NCBI GenBank assembly: GCA_027485045.1
Contig: JAIXRU010000117.1
Location: 1-32,972 of the forward strand
Direction of reading: 5' to 3'
Origin: Opitutaceae bacterium
Lineage (GTDB): Bacteria; Verrucomicrobiota; Verrucomicrobiia; Opitutales; Opitutaceae
Length of the DNA stretch: 32,972 bases
Part shown: one piece after another, positions 11,130-19,138 of the stretch
How the letters are laid out: every line of letters starts with the position of its first letter
Numbering within the stretch: position 1 is the stretch's first letter
Program-made: the position numbers and the translations under genes
The notes under the pieces: generated by a model
Told to the model about the DNA's origin: nothing
What the model saw: the letters and a program-made list of their open reading frames with translations, nothing else
The model's database searches: none

Positions 11130-13475
11130 TCACCGTGCCCGAACCAGCAAAAGCGCGCGATCATCGTGGCGGGGCGCTAGAGTGCAAAACTGCCTGAGAT
11201 AGCGATCAAATCGTCGCAAGATCTCCGCGAGGGGTTCGTTTTGATGTCGGCCCAGGGTCTCGACGACTCGATCGCGGCCAAATTCTTCACCCGACACATT
11301 ACACGCTTCGTTAATTCCATCGGTGTAAAGAGCCAGCAAATCACCAGGGTCGAGCGTCACCCCCCCCTCCTCCAACGTGTCGTCAAAAAGCTCGCCGGGC
11401 ACCATGCCCAGCGCCATGCCCCCTTCGCCCAGTAACACCGGGGCCCCGCCACCCGCCCGCAGTAGCAAGCCTGCCTCGTGGCCGGCCCGGCAATACCGCA
11501 ATTCCAGGGTGTCCAAATTTAGAATACCATAGAAGAGCGTGATGTACATACCCGGCGGCATGTCCGGTTGCAGCGCCCGGTTGACCCGCCGGAGCACCGC
11601 CGCCGGCGACACCTCTCCCGGCGCGCACAGTCGCAGACTGGCGCGGCATGCCGCCATCATCAATGCCGCCGGCGCACCCTTGCCTGAAACATCCGCGATC
11701 AGAAAACCATGATGCTTCCCGTCCACCGGCAATACATCGTAATAGTCGCCGCCCAATTGCTGCGAAGGCTGCGACAGCACCTCGACCTCAATGCGTCCAA
11801 GCGACGGAAAGCGGCTGGGAAGAAGATGCTGCTGCACATCCCGCGCCAGCGCCAGTTCACGCTCCTGCGCCACCCGCTGGTTGGCTTCGGCCACCTTGCG
11901 CTCGGTGATATCGGTGATCAACCCTTCATGATGCGTCACCTCACCCCGTTCGTTCACACGCACGATAGTGTGGTCATCGACCCACCGGACCGATCCATCC
12001 GCACATTGAATACGATACTCCTGGGTGTATTCTTGGTGGCCGGCCGCCGCATGCGCATCCACCTCGGCACCCACCCGTTCACGATCTTCCGGATGGGTGA
12101 TGTCACGAAAACTGAGCCGACGACTGGTTAAATCCTCCGGGGAATAACCAAATTGACGCAAGCTGGCGGATACGAACTCCACCGGCCAGTTACCTGCCTC
12201 CGCCCGCCAAAGGACCACCACCGAGGGCGAACGATCAATAATCCGCGCCATCTCCTCCAATCTGGCCAAGGCCGTGCGCAGTTCCTGCTGTGCATGTCGA
12301 CGGATGGAAATATCCCGACCAACGCCGAAAAACGCCCGACGCCTGTCGCGGTCACTGTACGCCGAACCTGTGGACGCATGCCATATCCAGCGACCATCCG
12401 CATGCCGCACGCGATACTCGATGCCCTCCCCACCTTTTCCCGTCTTCAGTGTACGGGCCAAAAACTGATCCCATAACGGCAAGTCCTCGGGATGCAGATA
12501 CTCACGAAAAGCTGTGCCGAGCACCTCATCCACCGGATGCCCCAACTTGGCGGTCCATGCTTGTGAAACGAATTTAAACCGACCCTCCGGCGTCAACGCG
12601 TAGAGAATCTCGCTGGCAGTCTGGATATAGGTGCGCCACCTCGCCTCAGTCCGTCGTAGTTCATCTTCGGCCAAATGTCGGGCCGTGATATCTTCGAGCA
12701 TCGCAAAATGATGCGTTATACGACCGTCATTTTCCCGTACCACCACCACGGTCAAAACGCCCCATACCGTGCGTCCATCGGGATGAATGTAGCGTTTTTC
12801 CAACGTAAAGTTATCCCGCTTCCCGGAATGGATCTCAGCGTTCAAAACCTCCTGCCGCTTCAAATCTTCGGGGTGTGTTATGCGGTAAACATTATTGATA
12901 TCTCCGGCCTGCTCGCGCGTGAGCCCGATCAACTCGCAAAAACGTTTGTTCACATGGTTGGTGCCCGGTTTACCGTCCGGCCCGAATTCCCGCCAACTTA
13001 GCCCGATCGGCGAATGCTCGAATAAGAGCTGCAACTCCCGGGTCTTTAACGCCAGCTCCCGTTCCATGCTCACCAGCCGGGAAACATCGGTACGAATCGC
13101 CAGAAACCCCAACCTGCGCCCGGCCAGACCAAGCAAGGGCAATATTGTCGTCTGCACCCAATACAGCCGTCCGTCTTTGGCCCTATTGCAGATCGCACCA
13201 CGCCAGATTTCCCCCTCCAGCATGGTTTCCCACATCTTAACATAAAACGAATCCGGATGCTGGCCGGACTTCAGTATCCTGTGCGTCTTGCCGATTACTT
13301 CATGTTCGCTGTAACCGGATATTTCGCAAAAGCGTTTGTTAACATACCGGATTACCCCCTCGGCATCCGTGATCGCCACGATGTCATGCTCGTCCAACCC
13401 TTGCCGAAGCCAGGAAAGCAACATGGGCTCATAAGCATCAAGAGTGGCATTGAGCAGAGGCGCGGGTAGATTCAT
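11130..13475 (-). CDS. Multi-PAS SpoIIE-family protein phosphatase
   Basis: The 781-residue protein has no membrane segment and consists of four PAS or PAS-PAC modules in tandem (about 20-130, 150-270, 280-395 and 410-530). Each PAC module ends in a motif such as TDVSRL, EDITARH, RDISIRR or TDITERK. A short coiled coil (about 530-560) leads into a PP2C-type SpoIIE domain (about 560-780) that keeps its metal-binding motifs GGDYYDV, ADVSGKG, CRAGHE, YTDGINE and the terminal HDDRALLLV. Such RsbU-like enzymes dephosphorylate STAS-domain anti-anti-sigma factors in response to signals read by the PAS domains. No STAS, RsbW-like kinase or sigma factor is in the window, so the target is unknown. It lies 47 bp after the ABC permease gene. 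Confidence 0.88.
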   Translation of the reverse strand: MNLPAPLLNATLDAYEPMLLSWLRQGLDEHDIVAITDAEGVIRYVNKRFCEISGYSEHEVIGKTHRILKSGQHPDSFYVKMWETMLEGEIWRGAICNRAKDGRLYWVQTTILPLLGLAGRRLGFLAIRTDVSRLVSMERELALKTRELQLLFEHSPIGLSWREFGPDGKPGTNHVNKRFCELIGLTREQAGDINNVYRITHPEDLKRQEVLNAEIHSGKRDNFTLEKRYIHPDGRTVWGVLTVVVVRENDGRITHHFAMLEDITARHLAEDELRRTEARWRTYIQTASEILYALTPEGRFKFVSQAWTAKLGHPVDEVLGTAFREYLHPEDLPLWDQFLARTLKTGKGGEGIEYRVRHADGRWIWHASTGSAYSDRDRRRAFFGVGRDISIRRHAQQELRTALARLEEMARIIDRSPSVVVLWRAEAGNWPVEFVSASLRQFGYSPEDLTSRRLSFRDITHPEDRERVGAEVDAHAAAGHQEYTQEYRIQCADGSVRWVDDHTIVRVNERGEVTHHEGLITDITERKVAEANQRVAQERELALARDVQQHLLPSRFPSLGRIEVEVLSQPSQQLGGDYYDVLPVDGKHHGFLIADVSGKGAPAALMMAACRASLRLCAPGEVSPAAVLRRVNRALQPDMPPGMYITLFYGILNLDTLELRYCRAGHEAGLLLRAGGGAPVLLGEGGMALGMVPGELFDDTLEEGGVTLDPGDLLALYTDGINEACNVSGEEFGRDRVVETLGRHQNEPLAEILRRFDRYLRQFCTLAPRHDDRALLLVRAR

Positions 13476-13522: not shown

Positions 13523-14389
13523 TCAGCCTTTAACCGCTCCCGCCGTGATGCCGCGCACCAAGTGTCCCTGCAAAAAAACATAGATCGCCAATATCGGCAC
13601 CGTCACGATCACGATACCCGCAAACAAGCGCGCTTGATCGCCCTGATACTGCGCCGTGATGGCCAGATTAGCCAGGCCGAGTGGCAACGTTTTTTCCGCC
13701 CCGCCACCCGTCAGCATGAAGGCGAAAAAATACTCCTTCCAGACCCCGATAAACTGAAAAATCGCCACCGTCACCAAGCCCGGCCGGGCCAAGGGCAGCA
13801 TCACGCGCCAAAAAGCCTGTGACTCCGAACACCCATCCACGACCGCCGCCTCGTACAGGGCTCGCGGCAAACTTCGAAAGAAACCCGTGAGAATAAAAAT
13901 CGCGAAGGGCAGGCCGTTAGCCGTGTAAACCAGCACCAGTCCCCAACGCGATTCCAACAGCCCCATTGCCCTCAACTCGAAAAACAAGGGCACCATCGCC
14001 AACTGCGCCGGCACCATCAGTCCCGCTAAAAACAACCCATGGGTAAACCGTCCCAGCGGATGATAAAACCGCGCCAGTGCATAGGCCGCCATCGAACCGA
14101 AAAGCAGAATCAAAGCGACCGAGCTCGTCGTCACCATCGCCGAATTCAGAAAATACTCGCCCAGCCCCGCATCCCGCCAAGCCCGGCCATACGCCGCGCC
14201 ATCCACGCCCGCCCACTCCGGCAGCGCCAGCGGATCCTGTGTGATGGCCGCATCATCCTTAAAAGATGAATACGCCACCCACACCATCGGGAAAATGACC
14301 CACAACAGATACCCGCCCAGCGCCGAGCCCAGCAGCCAACGCGCCGCGCCTGTTCCGCTGCGAGCCGGTTTCTCACGCAGAGGGTTCAT
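13523..14389 (-). CDS. Carbohydrate ABC transporter permease, MalG-like
   Basis: The 288-residue membrane protein has about six hydrophobic helices and the MalG-type EAA loop (YEAAVVDGCSESQAFWRVML), the docking site for the ATPase. It belongs to the CUT1 family of sugar importers. It overlaps the fused binding protein/permease gene by 4 bp, so the two form one translation-coupled unit. GGAGG and GGAG motifs precede the ATG, a purine Shine-Dalgarno unusual for this window. No ATPase gene is present, so a shared MsmX/UgpC-type ATPase encoded elsewhere is likely. The substrate cannot be read from the sequence. Confidence 0.9.
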   Translation of the reverse strand: MNPLREKPARSGTGAARWLLGSALGGYLLWVIFPMVWVAYSSFKDDAAITQDPLALPEWAGVDGAAYGRAWRDAGLGEYFLNSAMVTTSSVALILLFGSMAAYALARFYHPLGRFTHGLFLAGLMVPAQLAMVPLFFELRAMGLLESRWGLVLVYTANGLPFAIFILTGFFRSLPRALYEAAVVDGCSESQAFWRVMLPLARPGLVTVAIFQFIGVWKEYFFAFMLTGGGAEKTLPLGLANLAITAQYQGDQARLFAGIVIVTVPILAIYVFLQGHLVRGITAGAVKG

Positions 14390-16710
14390 CGCTCCACCGC
14401 CTCCTGACGTGTCACTCGCAGCACGGCCAGACTCGCCACCAACACCAAGCCGAACAACACCACCGCGATCGCCGAGGCCCGCCCCGCCTGGAACTCGTTA
14501 AAAAGCGCACCCACCATAAAGGTCCCGAGCGTATGCGTTCCCGCCGCCGGATCCTGCGCGGTAAGCAACCAGACCAACTCAAAAGCATTCAACCCGCCGA
14601 TTACGAGAAACACCGCCGACACCACCAAGACCTCACGGATCAAGGGCACTGTAATGGTGAAAAATTGCCGCGTCGCCGAAGCCCCATCCAGCTCCGCCGC
14701 CTCATAAAGCTCCTCTGGCACGCCCTGCATCGCCGCCAGATACAGCACCAGATTAAACCCGCACGCCATCCACAGATAAATCGGCACCAGCGACCAATAA
14801 AGATTGGCCTGCGCCAGCCAGGCATAGCCGGCAAAGCCCTTCAACCCCGCCGCCACCAGCGCCGCATTAATAAACCCACTGGTCGGCTCGTAGGCCGCCA
14901 GCCAGATCAAAGCCGCGGCGATCCCGCCCAGTAAGTTGGGAAACAACAATACGACCCGAAACACTCCCGCACCCGGCCCTCCGCGATGAATAAACGCCGC
15001 CATGCCCAAGGCCACCGGCACCACCACCAAAGGCGGCACCAGCATCAAAAACAGGTTGTTGCCCAACGCGGACCAGAACACATCGCTCTCCAGCAGCAGC
15101 CAGCGGAAGTTAAACAAACCCGCCCAACGCATCTCGCCAAAACCATCCCAGCGCACCAAGGACCACCCGAACGCCGCCAAGCCCGGCAACAAAACAAACG
15201 CGGCGTAGATACCCAAGGCCGGCCCCACAAACCCCGCCCCGAAATCGTTGCGCAGACGTCCCAGCCGACTCGTCGCCGCACCCGCTTCCTCTTGCGCGCC
15301 TTTACGTCGCCGGCGCGGCCAGACCATCCACGCCACCACCGCCGCCACCAAAATCCCCAGCCCGGCAGCCTTTCCCGCGTGACGCACCGTCACATGATCC
15401 GGGTCTTGCATCCTCCGTCGCTCGACTTCCGCCGCCGCCTCCAAACGCGTGCCGAACTCCGCCGCTCCGATACGCCCCGTCATTAACTGATATCGCAAAT
15501 CCGTGAGCGCCTGCGAAAGCGTGGCCTGCGCGGCCGATGCCGCCGCCGGCGCCGCATCGAAGGCCCCCGGACTGCGCTCAAGCAAAGCCGCTGTATCCGC
15601 CATGCGCGCCGAATAATCCCCCACCTTTGCCGCCACCAAGGCCACCGGAGCATCCGCCTGACTGGCAAACCGTCGCGCGCGTTCCCGTGAGGTGAGATAC
15701 CGGAAAAAATCTATCGTCGCCCGTTCCTTCGCCGCATCACCACTCTTGAATAAAAAATAATACCCGCTCTGTGCCTGAACCGTATCCGGTAAACTGATGC
15801 CGTCGGCAAAAACCGGCAGATTCATCGCACCCAGCTCAAAATCCGGCGGCAGCTTGCCCCGCATTTCATTGGCAAACCAGGATGCCGAAAGCGTCATCGC
15901 CGCCTTGCCCTCGATGAACGTCTGTTGCGCCGCCGTATGTGTCATGCCTTCCCAGCCCCGCACCAGATAACGAGTCGCCACCCGTTGCAGCACCTCCGCC
16001 GCCCGCACGAAACGGGGATCCGAACGCGCCCCGGGGGCCAGCGCATGATACGCGTTGTAGCCTTCGTCACCCGCCAGATTGTAAAACGCCGCGCGCAGAA
16101 TCGCGTCTCCATAACGCATCGTAACTCCCGGCAGAGAAAGCGGAGTCACACCCGCCGCCTGCATCGCATCACAGAGACGGAAAAACTCGTCCCAAGTGCG
16201 CGGCACCGACCAGCCGTGCCGCCGGAAGAGCGCTTTATCATAAAAGATAGTCCACACCGCGTGAGCAAACGGCAGGCCATAAACCGCTCCCGCTCCGTTA
16301 CTACGCCACCGGTCCAGCACCCCGGGCCGGAAGGTATCGCGCCAGCGCGCATCTCCCTCCCAATTCGGTCCGTCCAACTCGGGCGCGAGGTCGAGGATTT
16401 TGCCCGCTTCGATCAGGCGGGGATAAAGCAAAACGGCATCCGTCGCATCCGGCGGATCGCCTGCCATTACGCGGATGCGCACCCGATCATTAATGCGCGG
16501 GTCGCCATACAGGCGCACTTCCACCCCGGGACGCAGTTTTTCAAACGCCCGCGCCGTCTCCTCAAAAAACTCCGCGCCATAGCCAGCAACCAAAACCGGT
16601 ATATCCACCACCACGCACGGCCCCGCCACAGCCTTTGCCTCCGTCGTCGCAGTCTGGCCACGCAGCCATCCACAGCACCAACAGCACAGAATAAAACAGA
16701 TCAGTCGCAT
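14386..16710 (-). CDS. Fused solute-binding protein and MalF-like ABC permease
   Basis: One open frame encodes two parts of an importer. From the ATG at 16710 (774 residues) there is a signal sequence (MRLICFILCCWCCGWL). A family 1 type extracellular sugar-binding domain follows (about 30 to 430; motifs VYGLPFAHAVWTIFYDKALF and FIEGKAAMTLSASWF). A membrane helix comes next (about 446 to 464, LGILVAAVVAWMVW), then the basic cluster RRRRK. After that is a complete MalF-like permease with about six helices and the EAA loop YEAAELDGASATRQFFTITV (about 671 to 690). The basic cluster after the extra helix fits an out-to-in crossing, leaving the binding domain outside and the permease in its normal orientation. 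A GTG at 16791 would extend the protein by 27 residues but hide the signal sequence. Fusions of binding protein and permease are known in other importers such as GlnP; in the MalF class they are uncommon. Confidence 0.88.
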   Translation of the reverse strand: MRLICFILCCWCCGWLRGQTATTEAKAVAGPCVVVDIPVLVAGYGAEFFEETARAFEKLRPGVEVRLYGDPRINDRVRIRVMAGDPPDATDAVLLYPRLIEAGKILDLAPELDGPNWEGDARWRDTFRPGVLDRWRSNGAGAVYGLPFAHAVWTIFYDKALFRRHGWSVPRTWDEFFRLCDAMQAAGVTPLSLPGVTMRYGDAILRAAFYNLAGDEGYNAYHALAPGARSDPRFVRAAEVLQRVATRYLVRGWEGMTHTAAQQTFIEGKAAMTLSASWFANEMRGKLPPDFELGAMNLPVFADGISLPDTVQAQSGYYFLFKSGDAAKERATIDFFRYLTSRERARRFASQADAPVALVAAKVGDYSARMADTAALLERSPGAFDAAPAAASAAQATLSQALTDLRYQLMTGRIGAAEFGTRLEAAAEVERRRMQDPDHVTVRHAGKAAGLGILVAAVVAWMVWPRRRRKGAQEEAGAATSRLGRLRNDFGAGFVGPALGIYAAFVLLPGLAAFGWSLVRWDGFGEMRWAGLFNFRWLLLESDVFWSALGNNLFLMLVPPLVVVPVALGMAAFIHRGGPGAGVFRVVLLFPNLLGGIAAALIWLAAYEPTSGFINAALVAAGLKGFAGYAWLAQANLYWSLVPIYLWMACGFNLVLYLAAMQGVPEELYEAAELDGASATRQFFTITVPLIREVLVVSAVFLVIGGLNAFELVWLLTAQDPAAGTHTLGTFMVGALFNEFQAGRASAIAVVLFGLVLVASLAVLRVTRQEAVER

Positions 16711-16891
16711 GGATGATTTCTGCTCAAACCGTGGCGTCCGCGCCCCAGCTCTCGCAACCCTCAATCCCGCCTCGAAGCAGGCTTTTGGCACCTATCCGGT
16801 TTGTGGAGTTATCCCGCCTTTACCTTCCTGCCTGCAACCCGGAGCTCGCGTCATGATTTTGTAACCTCCCCTCCAAGGCTTAAGCTTTCTT

Positions 16892-16931: not shown

Positions 16932-18311
16932 ATGTCCGCCGTTTACGCCACCACTCTGGGCCGCAACCGCCATACCTTTGCCTCCCTACGCGAGCTCATG
17001 GGCAAGGCCACCCCGCGTCGTTCTGGCGATGAACTCGCCGGTCTGGCCGCCACATCCGCAGAGGAGCGTGCCGCCGCCCAGAGCTGCCTTGCCGACGTCC
17101 CGCTCGCCGAGTTTCTACGCACCCCGTTGATACCCTACGAAAGCGATGAGGTTACCCGCCTGATCATCGACACCCATGACCGGCAGGCTTTTGCCCCGGT
17201 AGCCAGCCTCACGGTCGGGCAATTTCGCGATTGGTTGCTACGCTACGAAACCGACGATGCCACCCTCGCCGCCCTCGCCCCCGGTCTCACGCCCGAAATG
17301 GTCGCGGCCGTCTCCAAACTCATGGGCAACCAGGATCTGATTCTGGTCGCCGCCAAACGCCGGGTGCACACCGCTTTTCGCAATACCCTCGGCATGGCTG
17401 GCCGGCTCTCCGTTCGTCTCCAACCCAATCATCCTACCGACGATCCACACGGTATCGCCGCCTCCATCTTGGATGGCCTGCTCTACGGCTGCGGCGATGC
17501 CGTCATCGGAATCAATCCCGCCACCGATAGCGTCCTGGCGGTGGAAACCCTGCTGCGCCTGCTCGATGATTTGATCCAGCGCTACGCGATTCCCACCCAG
17601 TCCTGTGTGCTCGCGCACATCACGACTACCCTCGAAGCGATGCGACGCGGCGCACCGGTGGACCTGGTTTTTCAATCCATCGCCGGAACCCAGGCCGCCA
17701 ACCAGAGCTTTGGCGTTTCACTCGCTTTGTTGGCCGAGGCCCAGGCCGCCGCGCTGGAACTTCGTCGGGGCACCGTGGGCGACAACGTCATGTACTTCGA
17801 AACCGGGCAGGGCTCCTGCCTCTCAGCCGGAGCGCATCAGGGCGTGGATCAACAAACCTGTGAAGTGCGCGCCTACGCCGTGGCCCGCGCCTTTCGTCCC
17901 CTGTTAGTCAATACAGTGGTGGGCTTCATCGGCCCGGAATATCTCTACGACGGCAAACAGATCATTCGCGCCGGTCTGGAAGATCATTTTTGCGGCAAGC
18001 TGCTCGGCCTCCCCATGGGCTGTGATATCTGTCATACCAACCACGCCGAGGCCGATCAGGACGATATGGATACGCTGCTCACACTATTGGGCGTGGCCGG
18101 CTGTAATTTTATCATGGGCGTGCCCGGTGCCGACGACATCATGCTGGGCTACCAAAGCACCAGCTTCCACGACAGCCATTACCTTCGCCAGGTGCTCGGC
18201 TTGCGTCCCGCCCCCGAGTTTGAAGCCTGGCTCGAAGCCATGCGCATCGTTACCGGTGGTCGCCAGCTCCTTCCCGTAACGGCCGATCATACGATACTGG
18301 CCCGTATCTAA
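16932..18311 (+). CDS. eutB: Ethanolamine ammonia-lyase heavy chain EutB
   Basis: EutB is the catalytic large subunit of the adenosylcobalamin-dependent enzyme that splits ethanolamine into acetaldehyde and ammonia. The 459-residue protein is of normal length and carries the expected conserved blocks: YESDEVTRLIIDTHD, LSVRLQPNHPTDDP, DAVIGINPATDS, MYFETGQGSCLSAGAHQG, LGLPMGCDICHTNHAEADQ and the C-terminal GVPGADDIMLGYQSTSFHD. The barrel residues that bind ethanolamine are in these blocks. EutC follows after 38 bp. No eutA reactivase, shell protein, EutE dehydrogenase or transporter gene is in the window. No cobalamin riboswitch is visible in the 140-bp leader region. Confidence 0.96.
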   Translation: MSAVYATTLGRNRHTFASLRELMGKATPRRSGDELAGLAATSAEERAAAQSCLADVPLAEFLRTPLIPYESDEVTRLIIDTHDRQAFAPVASLTVGQFRDWLLRYETDDATLAALAPGLTPEMVAAVSKLMGNQDLILVAAKRRVHTAFRNTLGMAGRLSVRLQPNHPTDDPHGIAASILDGLLYGCGDAVIGINPATDSVLAVETLLRLLDDLIQRYAIPTQSCVLAHITTTLEAMRRGAPVDLVFQSIAGTQAANQSFGVSLALLAEAQAAALELRRGTVGDNVMYFETGQGSCLSAGAHQGVDQQTCEVRAYAVARAFRPLLVNTVVGFIGPEYLYDGKQIIRAGLEDHFCGKLLGLPMGCDICHTNHAEADQDDMDTLLTLLGVAGCNFIMGVPGADDIMLGYQSTSFHDSHYLRQVLGLRPAPEFEAWLEAMRIVTGGRQLLPVTADHTILARI

Positions 18312-18349
18312 ACGCCTCGCAAAAAACCCTGCGACCGAGTCCCGCCCAA

Positions 18350-19138
18350 ATGTCTTTTTCGCTACCTGCACCTGATGCCGCCCGGGATCCTTGGCTGGCC
18401 CTGCAGCGCTTCACCACGGCGCGAATCGCCCTCGGGCGCTCGGGCGGCAGCCAGCGCACGGCTACCGTACTCGCTTTCAGAGCGGCCCACGCGCGAGCAC
18501 GCGATGCGGTGCAGGCTTCATTTTCCCCTACCACTCTTTGCGCTCAACTTGACGCTGCAAAGCTCCCCAACCTGGTCCTGAAATCCGCCGTAACTGACCG
18601 CCAAACCTACCTGCTGCGCCCGGACTTGGGCCGTAAGCTCTGCGCCGAATCACAGCGAAGCCTCGCGGACATAGCCGCTGCGCCGGATTATACCGCACCC
18701 GATATCGTCTTGATGATTTCGGACGGGCTCGCCGCCCAGGCAGCCGAAAACTACGCCCTCCCTACCTTGATCCCCTTGACCGAGGCCTTGCGCTCCTCCG
18801 GCTGGCGTATAGGTCCCGTGTGCATCGTCCCTTTCGCCAGAGTAAAAATCCAAGATGAAATCGGTGCTCTTCTGCGCGCGCGCTTTACGCTGCTCTTACT
18901 AGGCGAACGCCCCGGTCTAGGCTCACCGGATAGTCTCGGCGCTTACTTTACCGCGCGGCCAGCGGCGGAACGCACGGATGCCGACCGCAACTGCGTTTCT
19001 AATATTCGTGCCGCAGGATTATCGCCCGATCTCGCCGCGCGCAAACTCGCCTGGCTGCTCAATACTTCCCGGGAAACCGGTCAAAGCGGTGTCGCGCTCA
19101 AAGATACGCAACCCACAGAGGCCATCTCACCTCTCTAA
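18350..19138 (+). CDS. eutC: Ethanolamine ammonia-lyase light chain EutC
   Basis: The 262-residue small subunit completes the EutB-EutC complex and helps hold adenosylcobalamin. It has the family's N-terminal region with TTARIALGRSGG, the central DYTAPDIVLMISDGLAAQAAE, a CIVPFARVKIQDEIG stretch and LLLLGERPGLGSPDSLGAY, and it ends in AARKLAWLLNTSRETGQSGV, which matches the usual C-terminus. Length is somewhat below the roughly 295 residues of E. coli EutC. The distance and direction make it an operon partner of eutB. Confidence 0.94.
   Translation: MSFSLPAPDAARDPWLALQRFTTARIALGRSGGSQRTATVLAFRAAHARARDAVQASFSPTTLCAQLDAAKLPNLVLKSAVTDRQTYLLRPDLGRKLCAESQRSLADIAAAPDYTAPDIVLMISDGLAAQAAENYALPTLIPLTEALRSSGWRIGPVCIVPFARVKIQDEIGALLRARFTLLLLGERPGLGSPDSLGAYFTARPAAERTDADRNCVSNIRAAGLSPDLAARKLAWLLNTSRETGQSGVALKDTQPTEAISPL

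Follow-up and report, generated by a model that had tools for sequence, protein, structure and literature searches.

Fusion of a sugar-binding receptor to a MalF-type permease is a widespread, little-described importer variant in Verrucomicrobiota

The DNA analysed here, which we call the window, is a stretch of 32,972 nt from Opitutaceae bacterium (GCA_027485045.1, contig JAIXRU010000117.1). A single open reading frame on its minus strand (14386-16710) encodes a receptor and a MalF-type permease in one chain of 774 residues. The coding region runs from an ATG at 16710 to a last codon ending at 14389, the stop occupies 14386-14388, and the frame is already open from a GTG at 16791. The stop is overlapped by 4 bp by the next gene, malG. 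The features of this locus, together with those of some MalG partners from other loci that are discussed further below, are collected in Table 1.

Table 1. Features of the fused importer locus and of MalG partners carrying an insert in other loci
Feature	Residues	Coordinates	Strand	Basis
Signal-like N-terminus and start of mature region	1-30	16621..16710	-	model helix 2-20; orthologue N-termini
Sugar-binding domain, SBP_bac_1 / CUT1 type	31-435	15406..16620	-	Pfam, Foldseek, VIA
Extracytoplasmic tether DPDHVTVRH, 9 residues	436-444	15379..15405	-	orthologue alignment; 435/445 limits from model
Extra membrane helix TM0	445-463	15322..15378	-	model; hydropathy in orthologues
Cytoplasmic linker with RRRRK	464-487	15250..15321	-	orthologue charge; low pLDDT
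MalF-type permease with EAA loop	488-774	14389..15249	-	Pfam, PDB sequence matches, model helices
malG-type permease, partner of fused protein		13523..14389	-	BPD_transp_1, E 2.8e-21
PAS-repeat / SpoIIE-type phosphatase		11130..13475	-	Pfam; 47 bp past malG, same strand
MalG partners with insert, other loci		L075:1281-3005; L085:6165-8714; L089:2633-4822; L090:2464-4794; L201:4865-6772; L215:4557-7091		

Pfam placed SBP_bac_1 at residues 46-343 (E 1.5e-27) and BPD_transp_1 at residues 566-763 (E 2.1e-8), both above the Pfam cut-offs. The permease part is of the six-helix MalF type, and its EAA loop is YEAAELDGA (residues 669-677), in which Y669, E670, A671, A672 and G676 are invariant in 41 orthologues. 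An EAA motif is present in the translations of both the MalF-type and the MalG-type permease. An AlphaFold model of the monomer, built on 41 sequences, had a mean pLDDT of 80.7 and a pTM of 0.76, with pLDDT mostly above 90 in the receptor, lower in the permease and mostly below 50 in the cytoplasmic linker. In this model the binding domain extends up to residue 435 and is followed by a brief non-helical stretch, a helix at 445-463 and further helices within 488-768; the RRRRK motif falls at residues 466-470. The orthologue N-termini are hydrophobic and many have AXA-like end sites, as judged by eye. A sequence-only reading of this DNA had claimed that a signal sequence, a binding domain, an extra helix, RRRRK and a MalF permease lie in one frame, and this was borne out by Pfam and the model, with the signal assessed by eye. 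The topology that it proposed, with the binding domain outside and the permease in its usual orientation, is likewise supported.

Comparisons with known families place the protein close to CUT1 importers. Foldseek gave as its top match 9h0p, a fucosylated lacto-N-biose-binding protein (E 1.5e-21), and VIA gave 7eho, a chitin-oligosaccharide-binding protein (Z 38.9, 385 residues, 2.5 A); both lists were filled by the receptor domain, and the permease fold was outside their reach. In a sequence search of the PDB the closest receptors were 9h0n and RafE, and the permease was closest to SugA (1.6e-18), with MalF at about 8e-12. The best NCBIfam receptor model was NgcE (E 8e-55), with 186.5 bits against a cut-off of 399.65; the best permease models for the fused protein, UgpA and GlcT, and the matches of the malG product to GlcU, MalG and UgpE were also below their cut-offs. 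As all NCBIfam matches fell below cut-off, the importer appears to be CUT1-like, yet outside the named families. Two traits of CUT1 importers were found: an SBP_bac_1 receptor with the fold of sugar-binding proteins (Pfam, Foldseek and VIA) and two unlike permeases, MalF-type and MalG-type, with one EAA loop each (Pfam, NCBIfam and the translations). Across the orthologue alignment the binding domain keeps 63 positions unchanged, seven of them tryptophans (W117, W123, W135, W153, W173, W253 and W278).

Scanning genomes for relatives yielded 48 loci on public contigs, 47 of them from Verrucomicrobiota as judged by title, and several of these loci end early. Orthologues were present, among others, in Opitutaceae bacterium EW11 and in Geminisphaera colitermitum TAV2, whose copy is truncated by the edge of its contig. 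Homologues of malG were present in 45 of the 47, of pssA in 31, of dnaN in 27 and of the PAS/SpoIIE gene in 24. The recurrence of these neighbours suggests that the importer gene sits at an old chromosomal place. On the other side of the importer in the window, and divergent from it, are eutB and eutC, encoding ethanolamine ammonia-lyase (16932-19138); a eutB homologue was found in 2 of the 47 loci, and these genes look like a recent neighbour. A home-made profile search of the 47 stretches turned up no additional receptor ORF. Two loci were scanned with Pfam for substrate hints from neighbouring genes: the distant locus L030 contained a GH39 gene, and no family was found in a 356-residue ORF of L036.

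The PAS/SpoIIE gene is a candidate companion in part of the relatives, and in the window it lies on the same strand only 47 bp past malG. Conceivably the binding domain acts as a sensor, or transport has been lost, and the operon signals with the adjoining phosphatase. However, no homologue of that gene was seen in the remaining 23 loci (some of them truncated), and the permease is the most conserved part of the chain (mean pairwise identity 0.72 versus 0.61 for the binding domain), as is expected of a working transporter. We consider the signalling explanation very unlikely.

An orthologue, counted as a match at 1e-100 or better among the matches listed, occurs in 70 of 200 genomes of the family, that of the window included, and in 65 of those 70 both parts are in one open frame. 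The parts are on different contigs in four genomes (G022, G097, G109 and G124) and the gene is interrupted in G075. Likewise, 42 of the 47 loci have the fusion in one frame, the other five being one interrupted gene (L024) and four cut by contig ends (L045-L048). At the order level any match at 1e-30 was found in 17 of 273 genomes, and two genomes from other families, G212 and G226, carry an orthologue with 46-49% identity. In a collection of 72,556 plasmid records, 2179 matched and the one match covering at least 80% consisted of two separate ORFs, in a search that could miss divergent fusions. The interrupted orthologue, in the complete genome of IMCC26134 (CP011265.1; L024:7956-9186), is broken after about residue 642 by an opposite-strand transposase gene with rve and HTH_21 domains, so that the fused gene is dispensable there.

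This distribution bears on whether the frame is an artefact in which faulty sequencing or assembly has merged neighbouring genes. Separate operons do have the order receptor-malF, so that loss of a stop could join them, and one locus outside the window's clade, L185, is split into two overlapping frames. Against such an error, the one-frame fusion recurs in those 42 loci across many assemblies, with the remainder cut or interrupted, and all 41 aligned orthologues have a helix with a positive linker separating the parts, whereas just 2 of 46 separate receptors carry a helix at the C-terminus. The orthologues refute the artefact, to which we give practically no chance. A stop lost by sequencing error, which the sequence-only reading had raised against itself, fails as an explanation for the same reason, and its other reservation, that homologues might be uniformly separate genes, does not hold either: the window-clade orthologues that were read are all fused, and none was found as two separate genes.

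The junction between the two parts is itself conserved in its physical properties. The tether is 9 residues long in all 41 aligned orthologues, with P437 and H444 invariant; the TM0 region of each reaches a peak 19-residue hydropathy of 1.45 or more; and the linker, with a length of 16 to 62 residues, carries a net charge of +2 to +8 in every one. Mean pairwise identity is 0.53 in the tether, 0.38 in the helix and 0.28 in the linker. Compared with the two nearest relatives, dN/dS was 0.06-0.07 for the binding domain, 0.04-0.06 for the permease and 0.20-0.24 for the junction (436-490). For two further relatives, where synonymous sites are close to saturation, the junction values were 0.39 and 0.55. 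Across these four comparisons (0.20-0.55) the junction changes more quickly than the domains, still with dN/dS below 1. The low dN/dS, the fixed tether length and the kept linker charge show that both domains are under constraint and that leash length and linker charge are maintained. It is conceivable that one chain is made and then cut in the tether or linker, leaving an ordinary permease and a receptor that is either free or anchored by its helix, and an anchored, unfused receptor does seem to exist in the L180 operon, where the separately encoded binding protein has a membrane helix at its C-terminus. However, all 41 aligned orthologues retain the single frame despite the variable linker, whereas a cut protein would tolerate separate genes, and we regard processing of this kind as unlikely.

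The operon itself does not include an ATPase gene. ATPases shared between importers are known from MsmX and MsmK. A protein above the cut-off of NF008653 (UgpC-type) was found in 20 of 20 relatives, and in both relatives whose ATPases were scanned OB_MalK and TOBE_2 were present. In six of six genomes, no binding-protein or MalF/G-like ORF was found within 11.5-12.5 kb around the ATPase gene. These results point to a shared orphan MalK/UgpC-type ATPase as the likely partner of the fused importer. It was not found in the genome of the window, where the best NF008653 match had 309.5 bits against a cut-off of 432 and no OB_MalK; this assembly is 83.83% complete, and its incompleteness may explain the absence.

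Given the architecture, conservation, gene order and homology described above, the locus most probably encodes a CUT1-type sugar importer in which each complex bears a single, covalently tethered receptor, and we infer its working from general knowledge of the MalFGK2 transport cycle. The binding domain would be exported and held outside the inner membrane by its 9-residue leash, and the added out-to-in helix would allow the permease to retain the normal N-in topology. Pairing of the fused protein with MalG would give each complex one resident receptor, one binding domain per MalF-MalG pair being the natural inference. Once loaded with ligand, the receptor would close and dock on its own MalF-MalG, and ATP binding at the shared orphan MalK/UgpC-type ATPase would lead to an oligosaccharide, perhaps beta-linked or containing amino sugars, being passed inward. 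After hydrolysis the receptor would reopen and stay attached.

Well-known CUT1 importers are MalEFGK2, UgpBAEC and MsmEFGK. The fused importer resembles them in its SBP_bac_1 receptor, in its unlike MalF and MalG with EAA loops, and in the MalK-type ATPase of its relatives, and its gene order, receptor-malF-malG, is also that of separate operons of Thermus and of Shinella plasmids. It differs in that receptor and MalF form one chain with an added helix, so that the receptor cannot diffuse off or outnumber the permease. Among tethered importers, GlnPQ and OpuA have receptor and permease families different from those of CUT1, and the GlnPQ type is marked by an amino-acid-type receptor domain and a self-pairing permease. 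Here, Pfam found only SBP_bac_1/8, and a separate malG homologue accompanies the fusion in 45 of the 47 loci; the likeness to GlnPQ is limited to tethering. The covalent link between receptor and translocator is shared with both systems: in GlnPQ two tandem receptor domains are tethered to the permease, with four binding sites per complex (PMC8025302), unlike the one per heterodimer expected here, and in OpuA the receptor is covalently linked to the translocator (PMC11065425). Another source (PMC8276074) also refers in general terms to importers whose receptor is fused to the transport domain. The NCBIfam model NF043073 (MMSYN1_0195, polyamine) combines by its name a permease and a receptor in one chain and matched the MalG partner weakly (E 0.0021), but it belongs to a polyamine family and was not listed for the fused protein. 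Titles and beginnings of abstracts in the open-access literature yielded no such CUT1 or Verrucomicrobiota fusion, which is weak evidence of absence.

The sequence-only reading had proposed a search for this domain pair in Verrucomicrobiota, and when it was run, SBP_bac_1-BPD_transp_1 fusions proved to be common. Comparing the window protein with the phylum recovered MalF parts, some within open frames of 820-1080 residues. A long frame was rejected as a sign of fusion, six of them (L093, L094, L098, L099, L102 and L107) showing the permease family only. All 15 fused proteins from outside the 47 loci that were scanned with Pfam (L075, L085, L086, L089, L090, L092, L096, L199, L201, L203, L206, L208, L209, L213 and L216) had SBP_bac_1 above cut-off, and 14 had BPD_transp_1 at 0.01 or better (not L206; below cut-off in L201). 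A profile of 808 positions, built from 17 fused proteins, matched 119 of 288 phylum genomes at 1e-80, and among the matches listed a single row covered at least 690 positions in 90 of the 288, G651 being counted only through a row with an internal stop. With both domains covered in that many genomes, separate genes, given earlier as the rule for CUT1, are not the rule in Verrucomicrobiota, and the fusion cannot be upheld as exceptional in the phylum.

To see how these fusions are related, trees were built for the MalF domains (112 rows, 65 fused; an earlier version had 92) and the receptor domains (108 rows, 63 fused). Partial domains were excluded, L081 is absent from the receptor tree, and both MalF trees exclude L185 and the remote rows L146, L174, L187 and L188. 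Fusions appeared at the same five places in both trees: group A, which is that of the window, groups B and C, a pair and a single protein. Group A was represented in the MalF trees by 14 of the 47 loci plus the window, L096, L097 and L108, and in the receptor tree by 13; in both trees its neighbours include the separate operons L102 and L163, and those of group B include L093-L095 and L158. Two of the five places are thinly based, the pair (L082, L086) having a very long branch and the single protein (L092) being cut by a contig end. The same loci had supplied the domain profiles by which sequences were sorted, and subgroups smaller than all fused proteins were defined after the trees had been seen.

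A single clade of all fusions was rejected (MalF p 1.9e-9, receptor p 7e-4; 92-row MalF tree p 1.7e-4), as was a single clade of A, B and C (p 0.031 and p 3.7e-5). Only the receptor tree rejected clades of A with B (receptor p 3e-4, MalF p 0.10) and of A with C (receptor p 0.013, MalF p 0.66), and neither tree rejected a clade of B with C (p 0.33 and 0.56). For B with C (p 0.56) and for A with C in MalF (p 0.66) the held tree outscored the free one, which indicates that these quick trees are imperfect. In such a test a new joining and a re-splitting look the same. However, a C-terminal helix was present in only 2 of the 45 separate-receptor rows of the tree, and in none of those closest to group B, an argument against old fusions having come apart again. 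We regard two origins of the fusion as the likely minimum, and more are possible.

The fusions of groups B and C have the same order as the window protein, with a helix and a net positive linker between the parts, although the ten compared are only 18-23% identical to it. Beyond the 47 loci, 50 fused proteins were read, three from group A, and every one has a hydrophobic helix between the parts followed by net positive charge. The two separate receptors with a C-terminal helix, among 46, are L185 and L180. In L185 (3082-5723), a relative of group C, receptor plus helix and MalF are in two overlapping frames, through a frameshift, an error or a real split. L180 (1970-3430) encodes a separate sugar receptor with a terminal membrane helix and a basic tail, and such an anchored receptor is possibly an intermediate toward fusion. 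The MalG partners of groups B and C that were read have about 280-600 residues between the first and second helix, an inserted stretch that is seemingly an outer domain. Four of seven such partners scanned with Pfam showed the permease family only, and L090, L201 and L210 also had a Glyco_hydro_42 stretch. Perhaps it is a habit of this phylum to join receptor and malF, more than once (at least twice and maybe up to five times), with a new helix each time and with many MalG proteins carrying a large outer domain; we hold this view tentatively, somewhat short of even chances. If it is true, repeated joining would suggest that a common selective pressure was at work; in the periplasm of these bacteria an untethered receptor might, for instance, be too dilute or be lost too easily.

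The receptor-MalF fusion is a real, little-described variant of a well-known importer and is widespread in Verrucomicrobiota. Annotation that names one half only may be misled by such proteins. A tethered receptor should behave differently from a free one in its kinetics, in the response to receptor excess and in the sharing of one permease among several receptors. The well-studied tethered importers, GlnPQ and OpuA, carry amino acids and osmolytes, and these common fusions beside unfused relatives provide natural pairs for testing what tethering buys sugar importers.
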